From an uncultured Bacilli bacterium (lineage in GTDB: Bacteria > Bacillota_I > Bacilli_A > RFN20 > DUOF01): 52,541 bases of DNA. The translations under genes and the position numbers were made by a program. Shown one piece after another: positions 11,571-21,781 of this stretch. The notes below the pieces were generated by a model. That model had not been told where the DNA came from and did no database searches. It saw only the letters and a list, made by a program, of their open reading frames with translations. The stretch is from the NCBI GenBank assembly GCA_944363575.1, contig CALVUJ010000014.1:1-52541 (forward strand), in the 5' to 3' direction. The stretch's first letter is position 1. Each line of letters starts with the position of its first letter.

Positions 11571-12041
11571 ATGGAATTTAAATTTAAAAGAAAATATACT
11601 TTTTTCTTTTTCATAGCGTTACTTTTACACCTTTTAGTAATATCTTTTTGGTTTTTCTTCCCAAATGATTTACTAAAATCAGCACATGAAAAACAAACAA
11701 TTACTCTAATTGCCTTAATAAATTGTGAACTAATACTAATTTTTTATTTAGGATTATTTAGACAAAAATATTATGCCTACCATGATAAATTAATAATAAA
11801 ACGTTCACTTTTTAAAGATACGACAATTAACTACTCAACAATAAACAAAATAAAAGATAACCCTCGTGACACTATCTTTTTGGTCTTTGGTCATCGCCCT
11901 TCTTTCACAATATATTACACTGAAAAAAACAATAAAAAGAAAAAAATAATCATTCGTTCAGACAATTCTAAATTATTACAAACAATCATAAAAAACGAAA
12001 TAAACATTTCCACATTAAATAACAAAAAACTCACAAAATAA
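11571..12041 (+). CDS. small membrane protein with PH-like domain
   Basis: A 156-residue protein with two membrane helices (about 10-30 and 46-64) followed by a basic, beta-rich cytoplasmic part (YAYHDKLIIKRSLFKDTTINYSTI ...) that looks like a bacterial PH domain of the kind found in YdbS/YdbT-type membrane proteins. There is no catalytic signature. The ribosome-binding site is AGGAG, 8 bases before ATG. It is followed by a terminator whose stem includes its last codons, so transcription of the next gene is probably reduced. Function unknown. Confidence 0.65.
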   Translation: MEFKFKRKYTFFFFIALLLHLLVISFWFFFPNDLLKSAHEKQTITLIALINCELILIFYLGLFRQKYYAYHDKLIIKRSLFKDTTINYSTINKIKDNPRDTIFLVFGHRPSFTIYYTEKNNKKKKIIIRSDNSKLLQTIIKNEINISTLNNKKLTK

Positions 12042-15158: not shown

Positions 15159-16580
15159 ATGGGATTATTTGAAGTTTTACCTACTAATTTGTTTTCTGTT
15201 TTTAATTCCAAAAACAAAAATATCTATGTAAGTGCATTATTTGTATTAAGACAAGCATTTAAACAAGAATTAGTTATCGAAAAAGATACTTTAATTCACC
15301 AACTATCTTCTACCTTATCTACTGAATTATTATCACTAGATACTGACGAAGAAGAAGTTTTTAATGATGGAAAAAAATTAAACAAAGATGCCCTTTCCTT
15401 ATCTAGATTTATGGTAAAAAGATTATGTGAAACAGGTTGGATAGAAATTGAATATGGAGTAGACACTTCTTTCAAAGAATATATTGCTCTTGCACCTTAT
15501 TCAATAAAGATTATTAATACATTGTACGCTATCATGAAAGAAGATGAACAAGCTTACAATACACATATGTACTCCATTTACTCTAACCTTATACAAGCTG
15601 ACACTGACCGTCAAGACTTCATGTACACAGCTTTACTAAATGCTTACGATCGCACTAACGAACTAGAAAACGACTTAAAATCTTTATATCACAACATCCG
15701 CCGTAAATATAATAAACTTGGCTTTTTAAACACTGTAAACGAAGTCCTAGTAGATCACTTTGACAACTACCAAAAGAAAATAATAACTCAAATATACATG
15801 CCTTTAAAAACAAAAGATTCCTTAAATAGATTTAAAGGAAACATTGTTCAAATACTTTTAAAGTGGTTAAGAAATAGTGATTATATTGAAGAAATAGAAA
15901 AACAAGCCTTCAACTTTCAAAAATTTAATTCTCTTGATGAAGCTAGAGAAGATGTAATCACTAAGATTTATTTTGTTGTAGACAAACTAAACGAACTAGA
16001 AGAAATGATCGATAAAATAGATGAAAAGAACACAAACTACGTAAGTGCTACTACCGAAAAAATGAAAGCTTTGTTAAACAACGATAAAAGTATTAAAGCC
16101 AAAATGTCTAAATTACTTGATAAATTAGCAGACTCTCTAGTAGATAACACGCAAGATGAACTACTTCAAACATTTTACGATAACTTAAACTTGACTCAAA
16201 CGGCATACTTAAGTGAAAGTAGTTTATTTGTAAGAAGTTACACTGCTCCATTCTTATCAAGTGAGCCACTAGAACTAGATGATACCTCTTTTGATCACAT
16301 AGATGACATCGCAAGCAGTTTCATTGAAAACATGAACAACACATATTCTCATAAAAATGTCTTAGCCTATGTAGAAAACAAAATATTAAACAACAAAAAT
16401 GAATTACCTTCTTCACAACTAAAAATAAATTCAGATGAAGACTTAATACTAACAATTCATTCAATGTTAAAAGGCTGGGATAAAAACATTTTCTATAAAA
16501 TTGAATTAGAAAACGGAAATGTAGAAACAAGCGGTTACAAAATACCAAAAATGACATATTTAAGAAGGAGGAAGTTATAA
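15159..16580 (+). CDS. jetA: Wadjet JetA-like (MksF/MukF-type) kleisin subunit
   Basis: A 473-residue helical protein at the head of a three-gene SMC operon. The N-terminal segment (FEVLPTNLFSVFNSKNKNIYVSALFVL) matches the start of JetA-family proteins, and the middle is helical with coiled-coil tendency (about 150-330). JetA is the kleisin that links the heads of the JetC SMC dimer and binds JetB. In complete Wadjet systems the complex extrudes and cuts circular plasmid DNA; without JetD the closely related MksBEF type may act only in chromosome organisation. The ATG follows AGGAGTTG. The end overlaps the ribosome-binding site of jetB. Confidence 0.83.
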   Translation: MGLFEVLPTNLFSVFNSKNKNIYVSALFVLRQAFKQELVIEKDTLIHQLSSTLSTELLSLDTDEEEVFNDGKKLNKDALSLSRFMVKRLCETGWIEIEYGVDTSFKEYIALAPYSIKIINTLYAIMKEDEQAYNTHMYSIYSNLIQADTDRQDFMYTALLNAYDRTNELENDLKSLYHNIRRKYNKLGFLNTVNEVLVDHFDNYQKKIITQIYMPLKTKDSLNRFKGNIVQILLKWLRNSDYIEEIEKQAFNFQKFNSLDEAREDVITKIYFVVDKLNELEEMIDKIDEKNTNYVSATTEKMKALLNNDKSIKAKMSKLLDKLADSLVDNTQDELLQTFYDNLNLTQTAYLSESSLFVRSYTAPFLSSEPLELDDTSFDHIDDIASSFIENMNNTYSHKNVLAYVENKILNNKNELPSSQLKINSDEDLILTIHSMLKGWDKNIFYKIELENGNVETSGYKIPKMTYLRRRKL

Positions 16581-16581
16581 T

Positions 16582-17235
16582 ATGTGGCTAGATACTTACA
16601 ACAATTTAACTAATGGGGAAAAAGAAAGATTTGCTAAATTAACAAACTATTTACTAAACAAAACGTTTGTAACTAGAGAAATCTATGAAGTGAAAGATCG
16701 CTTAGGAAAAATAAATGCTGATTATCGCTTTATAGAAAAGTATTATGATTTATTTGAAGGATATCTAAAAGTTATAAATTATGTTTTAAAAGTAGATGAA
16801 GTATTAGGAGTTATTTATATAGAAAATGACTATGGTTATAACAAACTACGTTTAGACAAACTAACAACACTTGTTCTATTTACTTTAAGAACAATTTATG
16901 ATGAAGAAAAAGAAAGAAACGCAACAAGTAGTGTTGTCTACACCACAACTGCAAGTATCCTATACAAATTATTAGAATTAAAAATCGTACTAAAAAAACC
17001 AACAATGAAAGACATGGTCGATAGCATTCGTTTATTAGTAAATCAAAATATCCTAACTAAAATAGATGGATCAATTGATGATTCTGCTTGTCAATTAGCT
17101 ATTCTTCCTACTATTCTACTAGTAGTAACCAATGAAAAAATTGATGCTATTTATTCAATGGTTTTCCAAGAAGAAAAAGAATTACCAATTAACTTAAATC
17201 AAGAAGTTGATGACACAGTCTTCAATTTAGAATAA
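16582..17235 (+). CDS. jetB: Wadjet JetB-like (MksE/DUF4194) subunit
   Basis: A 217-residue winged-helix-type protein of the DUF4194/MksE kind, the KITE-like subunit that sits on the kleisin in SMC complexes. It is identified mainly by size, the N-terminal YLLNKTFVTREIYEVKDR segment, the GYNKLRLDKLTTLVLFTLRTIYDEE region and its place between jetA and jetC. Stop of jetA and start of jetB are one base apart, with AGGAGG inside jetA. It is followed by AAGGAGGAAG for jetC, so all three are one operon with tight coupling. Confidence 0.8.
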   Translation: MWLDTYNNLTNGEKERFAKLTNYLLNKTFVTREIYEVKDRLGKINADYRFIEKYYDLFEGYLKVINYVLKVDEVLGVIYIENDYGYNKLRLDKLTTLVLFTLRTIYDEEKERNATSSVVYTTTASILYKLLELKIVLKKPTMKDMVDSIRLLVNQNILTKIDGSIDDSACQLAILPTILLVVTNEKIDAIYSMVFQEEKELPINLNQEVDDTVFNLE

Positions 17236-17247
17236 GGAGGAAGAAAA

Positions 17248-20200
17248 ATGAAATTATTAAAGAAAATAGTTTTAATCAACTGGCATTATTTCCGTTTTGA
17301 AACTTTAGAATTAGATAAAATAAATTTCTTAACAGGTAAAAATGGTGCAGGTAAAACAACGGTAATTGATGCTATCCAACTATTAATGCTTGGAGATACA
17401 ACTGGACACTTCTTTAACAAAAGTGCTTCTGACAAATCAAGTAGAACCCTAAAAGGATACTTAAGATGTGAAGTTGGTGATGATGATAATGGAAATATGC
17501 TATATTTAAGAAATGGCCGTTTCACTTCTTACGTAGTAGGAGAATTCTATGATGATGTAAACAACGAATACTGCACGATTGGTGTTGTTTTTGATAACTA
17601 TGAAGATGGATCAATTGATTATAAATACTTTAGTTATGATGGCCCTGTACCTGAAAACAAGTTCGTTATCAACAAACTACCTTTATCAATCAAAGAATTA
17701 AAAGTTTACTTATTAGAAAACTATTATAAAAGCCAAATATCTTTCTTTGAAACAAACTCTGCCTACCGCGAATTCATTAAAGAAAAATTTGGGCATTTAT
17801 CTAATTCATTCTTTGGCTTATTCAAAAAAGCTATTCCATTTTCACCTATTTCTAACATTGAAACATTTATTACAGAATACGTATGTGATGTAAACTCTAC
17901 GATAGACATCGCTTCTATGCAAGAAAACATCCGTAACTATAAAAGATTAGAATCTGACACAGAAACACTAGCTAAACGTGTAGAAGAATTAAAACAAATT
18001 AAAGAAGTATATGAAACATGGAGAAACCAAGAAGATTCTTTCTTAACACAAAAATACATTTATCACCGTAGTGATCTACAAATCAAAAACAAACAACTAG
18101 AGCAAAATAAAGAAAAATTAACCGAAGGAAAAGAAGATCTAGGACAATACTCTTTATTAATTGATAAATGTGAACAAGAAATCAAAAATACGATTGCCGC
18201 TAAAGAAAAATTACTTGAAGAAAAATACTCCCTAGATATCTACAAACAACAAGCTGTAATTGAAGATAAAAAAGCTAAAATAGATGAACAAATAAAAGAG
18301 TTACAAAACAGTGTAGAAGCAATCGTAACTAACATGGACAACTATCAACTACAATGGATGGGATCCATCAATAAAATACTTGCTTGTGATGTACACGACA
18401 ACGAAAACATCAATGAACTAAAAGCTATTGCTAAACAATATTATAAAAGAATTGAAGAATTCAACACTAATATAGATTTAGAAAACTTAGACTTAGATTA
18501 CTTCGTTGAAATGCAAAAAAATATTAACAATCTAAAAACAGAAATAAGTGGAGTTCTACATTCATTCAAAGAAGAAATCAAGAAAAACAATCGCCGTCTA
18601 GCAGAAATATCATCTAATATATCTAACCTAGATCGCGGAGTAAAAAACTATGACCAAAGATTATTAACACTAAAAAGAATTATTGAACAAAAACTAAAAG
18701 AAAGACATAACAAAACAATTGAAGTATCCATTCTAGCCGATTTACTAGAAGTAAAAACACCACAATGGAAAAACGCAATTGAAGGATACTTAAATACTCA
18801 AAAATTTTATTTAATCATTGATCCAATCTATTTTGATGAAGCATTAAAAATATATGATGAAGTAAAATTTGAATATAATTTATATGATTTTGGATTAGTA
18901 GATTGCTTAAAAGTAAAACAAGCCAATCCTGTACGCATAAAAGGTTCTCTAGCAGAAGAATTAACTACTACGAACGATTATGCTCGTGCTTATATTGATT
19001 CTTTACTAGGTAACTTAATGAAATGTGATAAAGTAGAAGATTTAAGAAAATATTCTCGTTCAATCACTGAAACAGGTATGACTTATCAAGGATATGTAGC
19101 AAGACAAATCAACAAAGAAAGATGGCGTAATCACTACATCGGCATAAACTCTTTAGGCAATGAAAAACAATTCTTAGAAAATGAATATACTGATATTCAA
19201 AAAACTAACACTAAGTTAGAAAGTTTAATTACTACTTTTGAAGATGCTGCTCATGTAGAGGTTCTAAACACTAATGAGATAAAATCAATGAGTGAAATAA
19301 GTGTCGTATATAAGAAAATGCCTGATTTAGTTCACCAAAAAGATGAATTAGATAAAGAACTTGATAAATTAGATTTAAGTTATGTAGAAGTCTTAGAAGC
19401 CAAAATAGATAAAATGCAAAATAAAATTAGAGAATTCGAAGTACAAAAAGACGAATTACTAACAAGTCAAGTAAAACAAAGAAGCGAACTAGAAAGACTA
19501 GAGCAATTCGATATCCCTATGTATACAGATCAAGTAAAAGAAGCTAAAGAAGTTATTTATAACATGTTTAATAAAGCTTGGATCATGTCAACAGGTGAAC
19601 CTGCCTTCATTGAAGAATTAGAAAGAACTAAAAACATTACGACATTATTAAACTTCTATAAATCTAAGATAGACCACGTTGATAGTCAAAACAAAGGCTT
19701 AAGAGACAAACTAATCATGTTAAGAAGCCAATACAATTCAGTATACCATATTTCTTACAACCCAAATGCTGGAGACAATACACTATATGATGAAGAACTA
19801 GAAGAATTTGAAAGCAACAAACTAGTAGACTATCAAGAAAAAATCAAAATAGCTAAAGCTAACGCTATCGCTCAATTCAAAGACGATTTCCTAGCTAAAT
19901 TAAAATCTAACTTTGATACAGTAAAAATGCAAATAGATGCTCTAAACGATGCTTTAAGTGGCTCTAAATTTGGAACAGATTCTTACCACTTCATAATGAA
20001 TCCACGTACTGAATATAAAAACTATTATGATATGATTACCGATCCTCTTTTAATGGAAGGATACAGTGTAAACGAAGATGCTTTCCAAGAAAAATACAAA
20101 GACACAATTGAAGATTTATTTAGACAAATAACTTTCGCTGATACTACTTTAGATATAAATACTCGTAGTGAAATAGAAAGAAATATTGCTAAATTTACCG

Positions 20201-20607
20201 ATTATCGAACTTACTTAAAATTTGACTTAATCGTTACAGATAATGAAGGAAGAAAACAACACTTATCAAAAACATTATTAAAGAAATCAGGAGGAGAAAC
20301 CCAAACTCCATTCTACATTTCTGTACTTGCTTCATTCGCTCAACTATATCGAACTAACGATACATCAAATACGAAAAACCAAACAGTTAGACTTATCGTC
20401 TTTGATGAAGCCTTCTCTAAGATGGATAGTGAAAGAATTCAAGAATCAGTTAAATTACTTAGAAATTATGGCTTACAAGCTATACTAAGTGCCCCACCTG
20501 AAAAAATGTCTGACATTGTCCCTCTTGTAGATAACACCGTATGTATTGTAAGAGATGATCAAAATTCATTTATTAGAAATTATCAAAAAGAACTAGTCAC
20601 AGCCTAG
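17248..20607 (+). CDS. jetC: Wadjet JetC-like (MksB/MukB-type) SMC ATPase
   Basis: A 1119-residue SMC-type ATPase. Walker A GKNGAGKTT is at 30-38; the C-terminal head has the signature KKSGGETQTPFY (SGGE about 1014) and Walker B RLIVFDEAFSKMD (about 1047-1059), followed by ILSAPPEK. Two long coiled coils (about 225-480 and 640-800) flank a compact hinge-like region. The FDEAFSKMD wording and the N-terminal INWHYFRFETLELDKINFLTGKNG are characteristic of JetC rather than of housekeeping SMC or SbcC. All nucleotide-binding residues are present, so the ATPase is expected to be active. The coding end forms part of a terminator, and no jetD follows. Confidence 0.92.
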   Translation: MKLLKKIVLINWHYFRFETLELDKINFLTGKNGAGKTTVIDAIQLLMLGDTTGHFFNKSASDKSSRTLKGYLRCEVGDDDNGNMLYLRNGRFTSYVVGEFYDDVNNEYCTIGVVFDNYEDGSIDYKYFSYDGPVPENKFVINKLPLSIKELKVYLLENYYKSQISFFETNSAYREFIKEKFGHLSNSFFGLFKKAIPFSPISNIETFITEYVCDVNSTIDIASMQENIRNYKRLESDTETLAKRVEELKQIKEVYETWRNQEDSFLTQKYIYHRSDLQIKNKQLEQNKEKLTEGKEDLGQYSLLIDKCEQEIKNTIAAKEKLLEEKYSLDIYKQQAVIEDKKAKIDEQIKELQNSVEAIVTNMDNYQLQWMGSINKILACDVHDNENINELKAIAKQYYKRIEEFNTNIDLENLDLDYFVEMQKNINNLKTEISGVLHSFKEEIKKNNRRLAEISSNISNLDRGVKNYDQRLLTLKRIIEQKLKERHNKTIEVSILADLLEVKTPQWKNAIEGYLNTQKFYLIIDPIYFDEALKIYDEVKFEYNLYDFGLVDCLKVKQANPVRIKGSLAEELTTTNDYARAYIDSLLGNLMKCDKVEDLRKYSRSITETGMTYQGYVARQINKERWRNHYIGINSLGNEKQFLENEYTDIQKTNTKLESLITTFEDAAHVEVLNTNEIKSMSEISVVYKKMPDLVHQKDELDKELDKLDLSYVEVLEAKIDKMQNKIREFEVQKDELLTSQVKQRSELERLEQFDIPMYTDQVKEAKEVIYNMFNKAWIMSTGEPAFIEELERTKNITTLLNFYKSKIDHVDSQNKGLRDKLIMLRSQYNSVYHISYNPNAGDNTLYDEELEEFESNKLVDYQEKIKIAKANAIAQFKDDFLAKLKSNFDTVKMQIDALNDALSGSKFGTDSYHFIMNPRTEYKNYYDMITDPLLMEGYSVNEDAFQEKYKDTIEDLFRQITFADTTLDINTRSEIERNIAKFTDYRTYLKFDLIVTDNEGRKQHLSKTLLKKSGGETQTPFYISVLASFAQLYRTNDTSNTKNQTVRLIVFDEAFSKMDSERIQESVKLLRNYGLQAILSAPPEKMSDIVPLVDNTVCIVRDDQNSFIRNYQKELVTA

Positions 20608-20615
20608 TTCTTTTT
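20585..20615. terminator. bidirectional terminator between jetC and the 382-aa gene
   Basis: A perfect 12-bp stem, AAAAAGAACTAG with CTAGTTCTTTTT, and a 7-base loop. It includes the last codons and the stop of jetC and works on both strands, which isolates the jet operon from the convergent neighbour. Confidence 0.88.
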
Positions 20616-20632
20616 ATATACTATCTCAACTT

Positions 20633-21781
20633 TCATCTACCCATGTTCTTTTTATTTTCTTTAACTTTATAATTAATAACTTTTTTCCATTTATATTCCA
20701 TTTTTTGAGAAAAAATTCTCGTAAGTTCTAAACGTTCCTCATCATCAACATCAGGCTCAATCATTGAACACACTTCCCTATACGCAATCGTATCATAAAG
20801 ACGCGTTTCAATCTCCATAAAATCTTTATTTGAAACATCCCCAAAATAAATTGTATTATCATTCACAACATTAAAATTAAATTCCTCATCCTTACCAAAA
20901 TCTAACTTCATTTCCTCAAAACCAAAAAAAGCAACTAAAACATCACAAATATTCTTAATTGTAATCTCACGATGTTTCTTAGACAAATTATTCCATATAG
21001 GTATATAAAAAGCCATAATTGAAATTGATTGCTCATCAATACCTTTAGAATTCTCTATTTTCTCACAATAATCTTCCAAACATTTTTGTTCATTATTAAT
21101 CAACTCAGAAGCCATAAAAAAATAACCATTAACAAAATCTACCATCCTAGAACACTCTCTAGCCTTCATAATTTTCCTCGATATTCTCTTCAAATCATAC
21201 ACAAATTTTTTAAAAACACCAATAAACACAATTTTATCCAAAAAAGAGTAACCTTTTATAAAATAATTAAAATCCATTCTTTTAAAAAGCTCCACAAGTT
21301 GTTCATTAGCATAACAAAAAGCATCGCTTTTCCTAGGATTAAAAAAATAATAACCATATCCCTTTTTAAAAGGAATACTCGCAGGAAAATCCGAAATTGG
21401 AGAAACAAGAAAATTAAACTTCAACCGTTCAAAATCTTCATCACTATAACACCCTTTATCATTCCTACTAACACAAAGACTCTGATACTGCTCTCTTTTA
21501 AAATAAAAATACCTAAATAACACATCATAACCAGATGTAAATCTTTTCTTTTCTCCTATAAAAATATCTTTATATCCTTTATATTCCTCATTTGTTTCAA
21601 ACACAAAATTAGCCCTAGGCATACCCGTAGACTCACTCACTATCTCATCCAATTCCTCTAACAAAACCCTAATCTCATCTTCTTTTTTATACAAAAAATT
21701 AATGTCTACAAATTGATACACAACATTTCTTACATTACTCCCAATTAAACTATATCCCAAATTAAAATTCTCAATTATCAT
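20633..21781 (-). CDS. unrecognised 382-aa cytoplasmic protein
   Basis: I do not recognise this family. It is 382 residues, has no signal peptide or membrane helix, is aromatic-rich (for example VLFRYFYFKREQYQSL and FKKGYGYYFFNP) and ends in a strongly basic tail (KWKKVINYKVKENKKN). A middle helical region contains KFVYDLKRISRKIMKARECSRMVDF. It is not JetD: there is no Toprim-like E...DxD pattern and no match to the JetD layout. It stands alone, convergent with jetC, with its own near-consensus promoter, and ends with TGA, supporting the standard code. Position next to jetABC may be coincidental. Confidence 0.6.
   Translation of the reverse strand: MIIENFNLGYSLIGSNVRNVVYQFVDINFLYKKEDEIRVLLEELDEIVSESTGMPRANFVFETNEEYKGYKDIFIGEKKRFTSGYDVLFRYFYFKREQYQSLCVSRNDKGCYSDEDFERLKFNFLVSPISDFPASIPFKKGYGYYFFNPRKSDAFCYANEQLVELFKRMDFNYFIKGYSFLDKIVFIGVFKKFVYDLKRISRKIMKARECSRMVDFVNGYFFMASELINNEQKCLEDYCEKIENSKGIDEQSISIMAFYIPIWNNLSKKHREITIKNICDVLVAFFGFEEMKLDFGKDEEFNFNVVNDNTIYFGDVSNKDFMEIETRLYDTIAYREVCSMIEPDVDDEERLELTRIFSQKMEYKWKKVINYKVKENKKNMGR

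Follow-up and report, generated by a model that had tools for sequence, protein, structure and literature searches.

The operon at positions 15,159 to 20,607 of the analysed contig of an uncultured Bacilli bacterium (the window: the whole stretch of 52,541 nucleotides) encodes the three core subunits of a Wadjet-type SMC complex but no JetD, the nuclease subunit that cuts plasmids, and raises the question of which function a Wadjet without its nuclease might serve. According to the comparisons described here, it is probably a JetD-less Wadjet core, derived from JetABCD and retained to extrude loops on the chromosome as an MksBEF/MukBEF-like condensin, in a lineage devoid of Smc-ScpAB; loop extrusion, the chromosomal role and the replacement of Smc-ScpAB are each presumptive elements of this reading.

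The genes jetA, jetB and jetC are intact open reading frames, separated by 1 nt (jetA-jetB) and 12 nt (jetB-jetC) and each preceded by a Shine-Dalgarno sequence (see Table 1). Pfam (E-values of 5e-91 for JetA, 5e-21 for DUF4194 in jetB and 2e-26 for SbcC_Walker_B in jetC) and PADLOC identify the core trio of a type I Wadjet in a single operon; the subunit identities, gene order and coupling read from the sequence in the first-pass annotation were thereby confirmed. Its three JetC motifs were likewise found, intact at columns showing no variation among 26 diverse JetC proteins. Among solved structures, JetC matched only JetC (8dk1/8dk2/8dk3, closest) and, weakly, MukB; no PDB match was obtained for JetB. 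The proteins do not belong to the MukBEF family, as the resemblance of JetC to the MukB N-terminal domain is weak (27.3 bits over 60 residues, Pfam) and MukE or MukF Pfam matches are absent from the operon, nor to Smc-ScpAB (JetC versus SMC_prok_B: 25.6 bits, cut-off 567). The gene content (SMC-like ATPase, kleisin and KITE subunit without MksG) is that of a nuclease-free MksBEF.

Table 1. Features of the jetABC operon (window coordinates).
Feature	Position	Strand	Description	Evidence
jetA	15159-16580	+	kleisin subunit, MksF/MukF-like, 473 aa	Pfam JetA 305.7 bits over 30-470; PADLOC JetA1 436 bits
jetB	16582-17235	+	KITE subunit, MksE-like, 217 aa	DUF4194 75.5 bits; PADLOC JetB1 217 bits
jetC	17248-20607	+	SMC-like ATPase, MksB-like, 1119 aa	PADLOC JetC1 1174 bits; SbcC_Walker_B and AAA_29 (Pfam)
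JetC Walker A	17335-17361	+	GKNGAGKTT	G30, N32, G35, K36 invariant in 26 JetC
JetC ABC signature	20287-20316	+	SGGETQTPFY	S1014-E1017, Q1019, P1021, Y1023 invariant in 26 JetC
JetC Walker B	20401-20427	+	FDEAFSKMD	D1053, E1054, F1056, D1060 invariant in 26 JetC
Terminator	20585-20615	strand-neutral	12-bp perfect stem and T tract over the jetC stop codon	-12 kcal/mol, z = -4.4

The perfect stem that had been noticed at the end of jetC is real and probably constitutes a terminator common to jetC and the convergent gene that follows at a distance of 26 nt. A strong promoter of the operon's own, as previously claimed, was not recovered: The consensus scan listed no site on the + strand upstream of jetA, though a TATAAT is present at about 15127. 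The convergent gene (20633-21781, - strand) encodes a 382-aa protein without Pfam, PADLOC or NCBIfam match; further upstream in the window, a gene for a 156-aa protein without Pfam match (11571-12041, + strand) lies just ahead of that of a BrkB-family membrane protein.

The genomes compared are all MAG-like, and family-level associations among them are phylogenetically clumped. A JetC profile search gave strong matches in all four genomes of the window's family and detected JetC in 120 of the 279 genomes of its order (E <= 1e-60). The scores fell into two groups that were also separated by the trees. The first, clade A, includes the window's operon; its 51 examined loci score >570 bits when their JetC is compared with that of the window. 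The other, hereafter the second type, is mixed and comprises 30 loci with scores of <310 bits. Clade A JetC was present in 53 of the 54 genomes of six families (f1-f4, f6 and f8), the exception being a genome of 65% completeness, and in some genera of family f5. Clade A is vertically inherited: Its JetC proteins form one clade, the loci are embedded in housekeeping genes with an order shared in 32 of them (glgC/D-like pairs, glgA, leuS, rpe and a PrkC-like kinase, names read from the sequences rather than from a family search), and dN/dS values of 0.04-0.14, where dS was measurable, document purifying selection.

The absence of jetD proved to be a property of this whole clade, as none of the 51 loci carries the gene next to jetC. 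Judged by PF09983 search and locus inspection, no JetD nuclease (DUF3322 plus JetD_C Toprim domain) belongs to the window's complex: JetD_C was found neither in the own genome (G000; 26 contigs, 1.13 Mb, 91% complete), where the first-pass annotation had proposed to look for it, nor in the other three genomes of the family. A jetD directly behind jetC in relatives, which that annotation had named as counter-evidence, does occur in some other families and, within the order, in the second JetABC type, but not in the orthologues of the window's operon. Degraded jetD genes beside the JetD-less operons were considered and rejected: A tblastn search of 98 JetD-less loci with 23 JetD proteins revealed no remnant next to jetC (best match E = 0.006, in an unrelated place), while each JetD-bearing locus was recovered by all 22 other JetDs. 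The N-terminal arm of JetB was considered as a former docking site of JetD, since about 16 residues precede the conserved phenylalanine in clade A and in families f10 and f26-f28 versus about 24 in most JetD-bearing systems. This candidate was discarded because the JetD-bearing Wadjets of family f14 share the short start (an ATG with a good Shine-Dalgarno sequence); arm length marks a JetB subgroup, not the loss of JetD.

It is very improbable that the window's JetABC is one half of a split Wadjet whose JetD or other nuclease is encoded at another locus. In favour of it, 9% of the own genome is missing, and two relatives (G041 and G158) possess a JetD match on a contig without detected JetC; however, of the 22 JetD_C matches that passed the cut-off in the order, 20 lie on the same contig as a second-type JetC, none adjoins clade A, and the domain is absent from all four genomes of the family. 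The unlinked JetD put forward initially is thus unsupported, the JetD proteins of the order being encoded beside a different JetABC type apart from the two cases mentioned. A non-homologous effector fared no better: No gene downstream of the operon is conserved throughout clade A, the neighbours that recur near the JetD-less operons have functions in metabolism or translation, and a conserved replacement gene was not found.

These results also bear on the possibility that JetABC is still a defence system that extrudes or traps invading plasmid or phage DNA and silences it or passes it to an unlinked or host nuclease. In its favour, PADLOC identifies the complex as a homologue of Wadjet, a system that senses small circles through JetABC (PMC10586767). 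Nevertheless, we regard this explanation as unlikely in view of the near-universal presence of clade A in six families, its synteny with housekeeping genes, the lack of defence genes among its annotated neighbours and of a conserved downstream partner, and the fact that a true Wadjet with JetD, where present, is a second, separate copy.

A search for the canonical condensin, likewise proposed at the outset, yielded a consistent picture. None of the order's 279 genomes had an Smc or ScpB match over the cut-off, the 7 SMC_hinge matches that passed the threshold all fell inside JetC reading frames, and ScpA was absent from 78 of 78 Smc-less genomes but found in both Smc-bearing genomes searched alongside as controls. 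A 391-bit C-terminal Smc fragment on a small contig (L045, G014:C55:381-1463) is possibly a contamination. In the class sample outside the order, Smc was detected in 88 of 156 genomes; families f10, f16, f26, f27 and f28 possess JetC and lack Smc, and about half of the Smc-less genomes are also devoid of JetC. JetD-less JetABC occurred in 28 of 68 Smc-less versus about 6-9 of 88 Smc-bearing genomes of this sample (Fisher p 3e-7 to 8e-6, kinship ignored). A literature search retrieved no paper linking the order, searched as RF39 (the name is a guess), to SMC loss.

Besides the own genome, 40 of 48 clade A hosts and all six hosts of genus g46 (see below) encode ParB, compared with 8 of 16 genomes without JetABC (Fisher p 0.006, kinship ignored); an involvement of ParB is offered as a suggestion only. 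No parS site was present within the window at <=2 mismatches. Two Smc-less genomes of family f16 with a JetD-less JetABC (G286 and G364) had no ParB match, so that JetABC there would have to work without ParB.

Loss of the nuclease is not confined to clade A. Among the 30 second-type loci, jetD abuts or overlaps the end of jetC in 17 and is missing in 13. The missing cases are unevenly distributed: JetD is missing from the second-type JetABC in 13 of the 20 hosts that lack clade A but in none of the 10 that possess it (one-sided hypergeometric 6.5e-4, worked by hand, kinship ignored, about four lineages). Moreover, all 13 two-copy genomes examined contained exactly one JetD-less and one JetD-bearing JetABC. 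Both patterns would be expected of a JetD-less complex with a single role in each cell. Outside the order, JetD was missing from all examined JetABC of families f16 (14/14), f28 (7/7), f26 (2/2) and f10 (3/3) and from two of three in f27, the third f27 complex coexisting, as a second copy, with a JetD-less one in its genome; in the Smc-possessing family f14, JetD-bearing and JetD-less complexes exist side by side.

On the JetC tree (LG+C20, 52 rows, without outside outgroup), the distribution of JetD requires 7 changes, at least 5 of them forced by starred branches; the AU test rejected a grouping of all JetD-less rows in one clade (p-AU = 4e-7). JetD appears to have been lost repeatedly in the class. 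As judged from these sequences, loss is favoured over gain because the position of jetD never varies, the gene always overlapping or abutting jetC, and because the JetD-bearing f14 Wadjets group within the set of clade A, f10 and f26-f28. Genus g46, which is without clade A, harbours up to three separate JetD-less JetABC lineages (L113, L116, L118-L120, L124-L126, L128, L130-L132), the order's own JetABC having been lost.

A further explanation takes JetABC for an SMC-like complex linked to DNA repair or replication, or for a relic, which has no global role on the chromosome and is tolerated by a reduced genome. Some genera of the order that are also Smc-less have indeed lost JetABC altogether, and loss of smc is tolerated in Corynebacterium glutamicum (PMC11898615). 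Against this stand the low dN/dS, the ATPase motifs intact in all rows and the occurrence in g46 of JetD-less lineages in the place of clade A; we consider it an unlikely account.

The reading as a nuclease-free condensin is favoured because Smc-ScpAB is absent from the entire order, clade A is vertically inherited under purifying selection, the loss of JetD is recurrent and ParB is retained, and because a precedent exists in the MksBEF complex of Pseudomonas aeruginosa; the non-cutting, condensin-like role, one of the two options initially considered, gains support from the absence of Smc-ScpAB, from the inheritance and selection of clade A, and from a recurrent JetD loss that is limited to cells with no further JetD-less copy. 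The MksBEF of P. aeruginosa is thought to have derived from JetABCD through loss of JetD (PMC10586767) and organises the chromosome beside Smc (PMC7485682). An origin of MukBEF and MksBEF from plasmid-defence Wadjets has been suggested in reviews, and MukBEF replaced Smc-ScpAB in enterobacteria (PMC10586767); MksBEF has been described as sporadic and usually present alongside Smc-ScpAB or MukBEF (PMC7485682).

In comparison with these systems, the window's complex shares with type I Wadjet (JetABCD/MksBEFG) the JetA-JetB-JetC order, the tight coupling and a family-level match of all three subunits, but its operon and genome lack JetD/MksG and its lineage is vertical and near-universal. Like the P. 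aeruginosa MksBEF, it is a nuclease-free kleisin-KITE-SMC complex; the former, however, coexists with Smc-ScpAB, from which the window's whole order is free, and among the Bacilli complexes JetD was apparently lost several times (class tree, without the P. aeruginosa protein). MukBEF is similarly Wadjet-like and stands in the place of Smc-ScpAB, whereas the JetC of the window has only the weak MukB N-terminal match (27 bits). MukBEF works with MatP; in most clade A hosts, by contrast, ParB is kept. With Smc-ScpAB itself, absent from the order according to Smc, hinge, ScpA and ScpB models, JetABC has the general kleisin/KITE/SMC architecture and the presumed role in common. What distinguishes the present case from the P. 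aeruginosa and enterobacterial precedents is its scale and recurrence, together with the lack of Smc-ScpAB.

In the proposed course of events, the ancestor would have been a plasmid-cutting JetABCD that was reduced to the JetABC core by loss of JetD. Dimers of JetC, together with the JetA kleisin and JetB KITE dimers, would hydrolyse ATP, hold DNA and extrude loops, a step that we infer from the solved Wadjet and MukBEF. Without JetD, a finished loop would have no cutting outcome, and the complex could act on the chromosome, perhaps in concert with the retained ParB. For the class as a whole, it seems on balance somewhat more plausible than otherwise that Wadjet was repeatedly disarmed by loss of JetD in several Bacilli lineages and became the sole chromosomal condensin where Smc-ScpAB was lost (the window's order, f10, f16, f26, f27 and f28), that newly disarmed Wadjets took the place of the resident complex in g46, and that related genera are without recognisable condensin. 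The genomes offer a large and recurrent natural series, from JetABCD alone or beside Smc, via JetABC plus JetABCD plus Smc (f14) and JetABC without Smc, to neither complex. Comparing matched complexes with and without JetD from this series makes the turn from defence to condensin directly testable; the series also indicates that some gut bacteria may be without any condensin.

The last member of this series does not result from thresholds that missed JetC: When the 80 JetC-negative genomes (75 from the order and 5 from elsewhere in the class) were retested with a 26-row JetC profile, 79 remained negative, and the sole match comprised 33 bits over 46 residues. Many genera of f5 (e.g. g17, g21, g27 and g45) possess neither Smc-ScpAB nor any JetABC, among them near-complete genomes (e.g. 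G060, G074, G090, G101, G133, G208 and G226); half of the tested f5-type genomes with neither complex also had no ParB match. Such f5 members may be bacteria without any recognisable condensin. In consequence, a condensin is dispensable in the order, and a replacement of Smc-ScpAB by JetABC, although we infer it, is not forced; that JetABC took over an essential task cannot be said from sequence.

A clade A JetC assigned to the f5 genus g27 (L092, on a 5.9-kb contig of G113) groups with family f2, which reflects either horizontal transfer or mis-binning. The genome-contig scan yielded a sole, close relative, Bacilli bacterium isolate RGIG6178 from sheep rectum, with a JetC identity of 77%.
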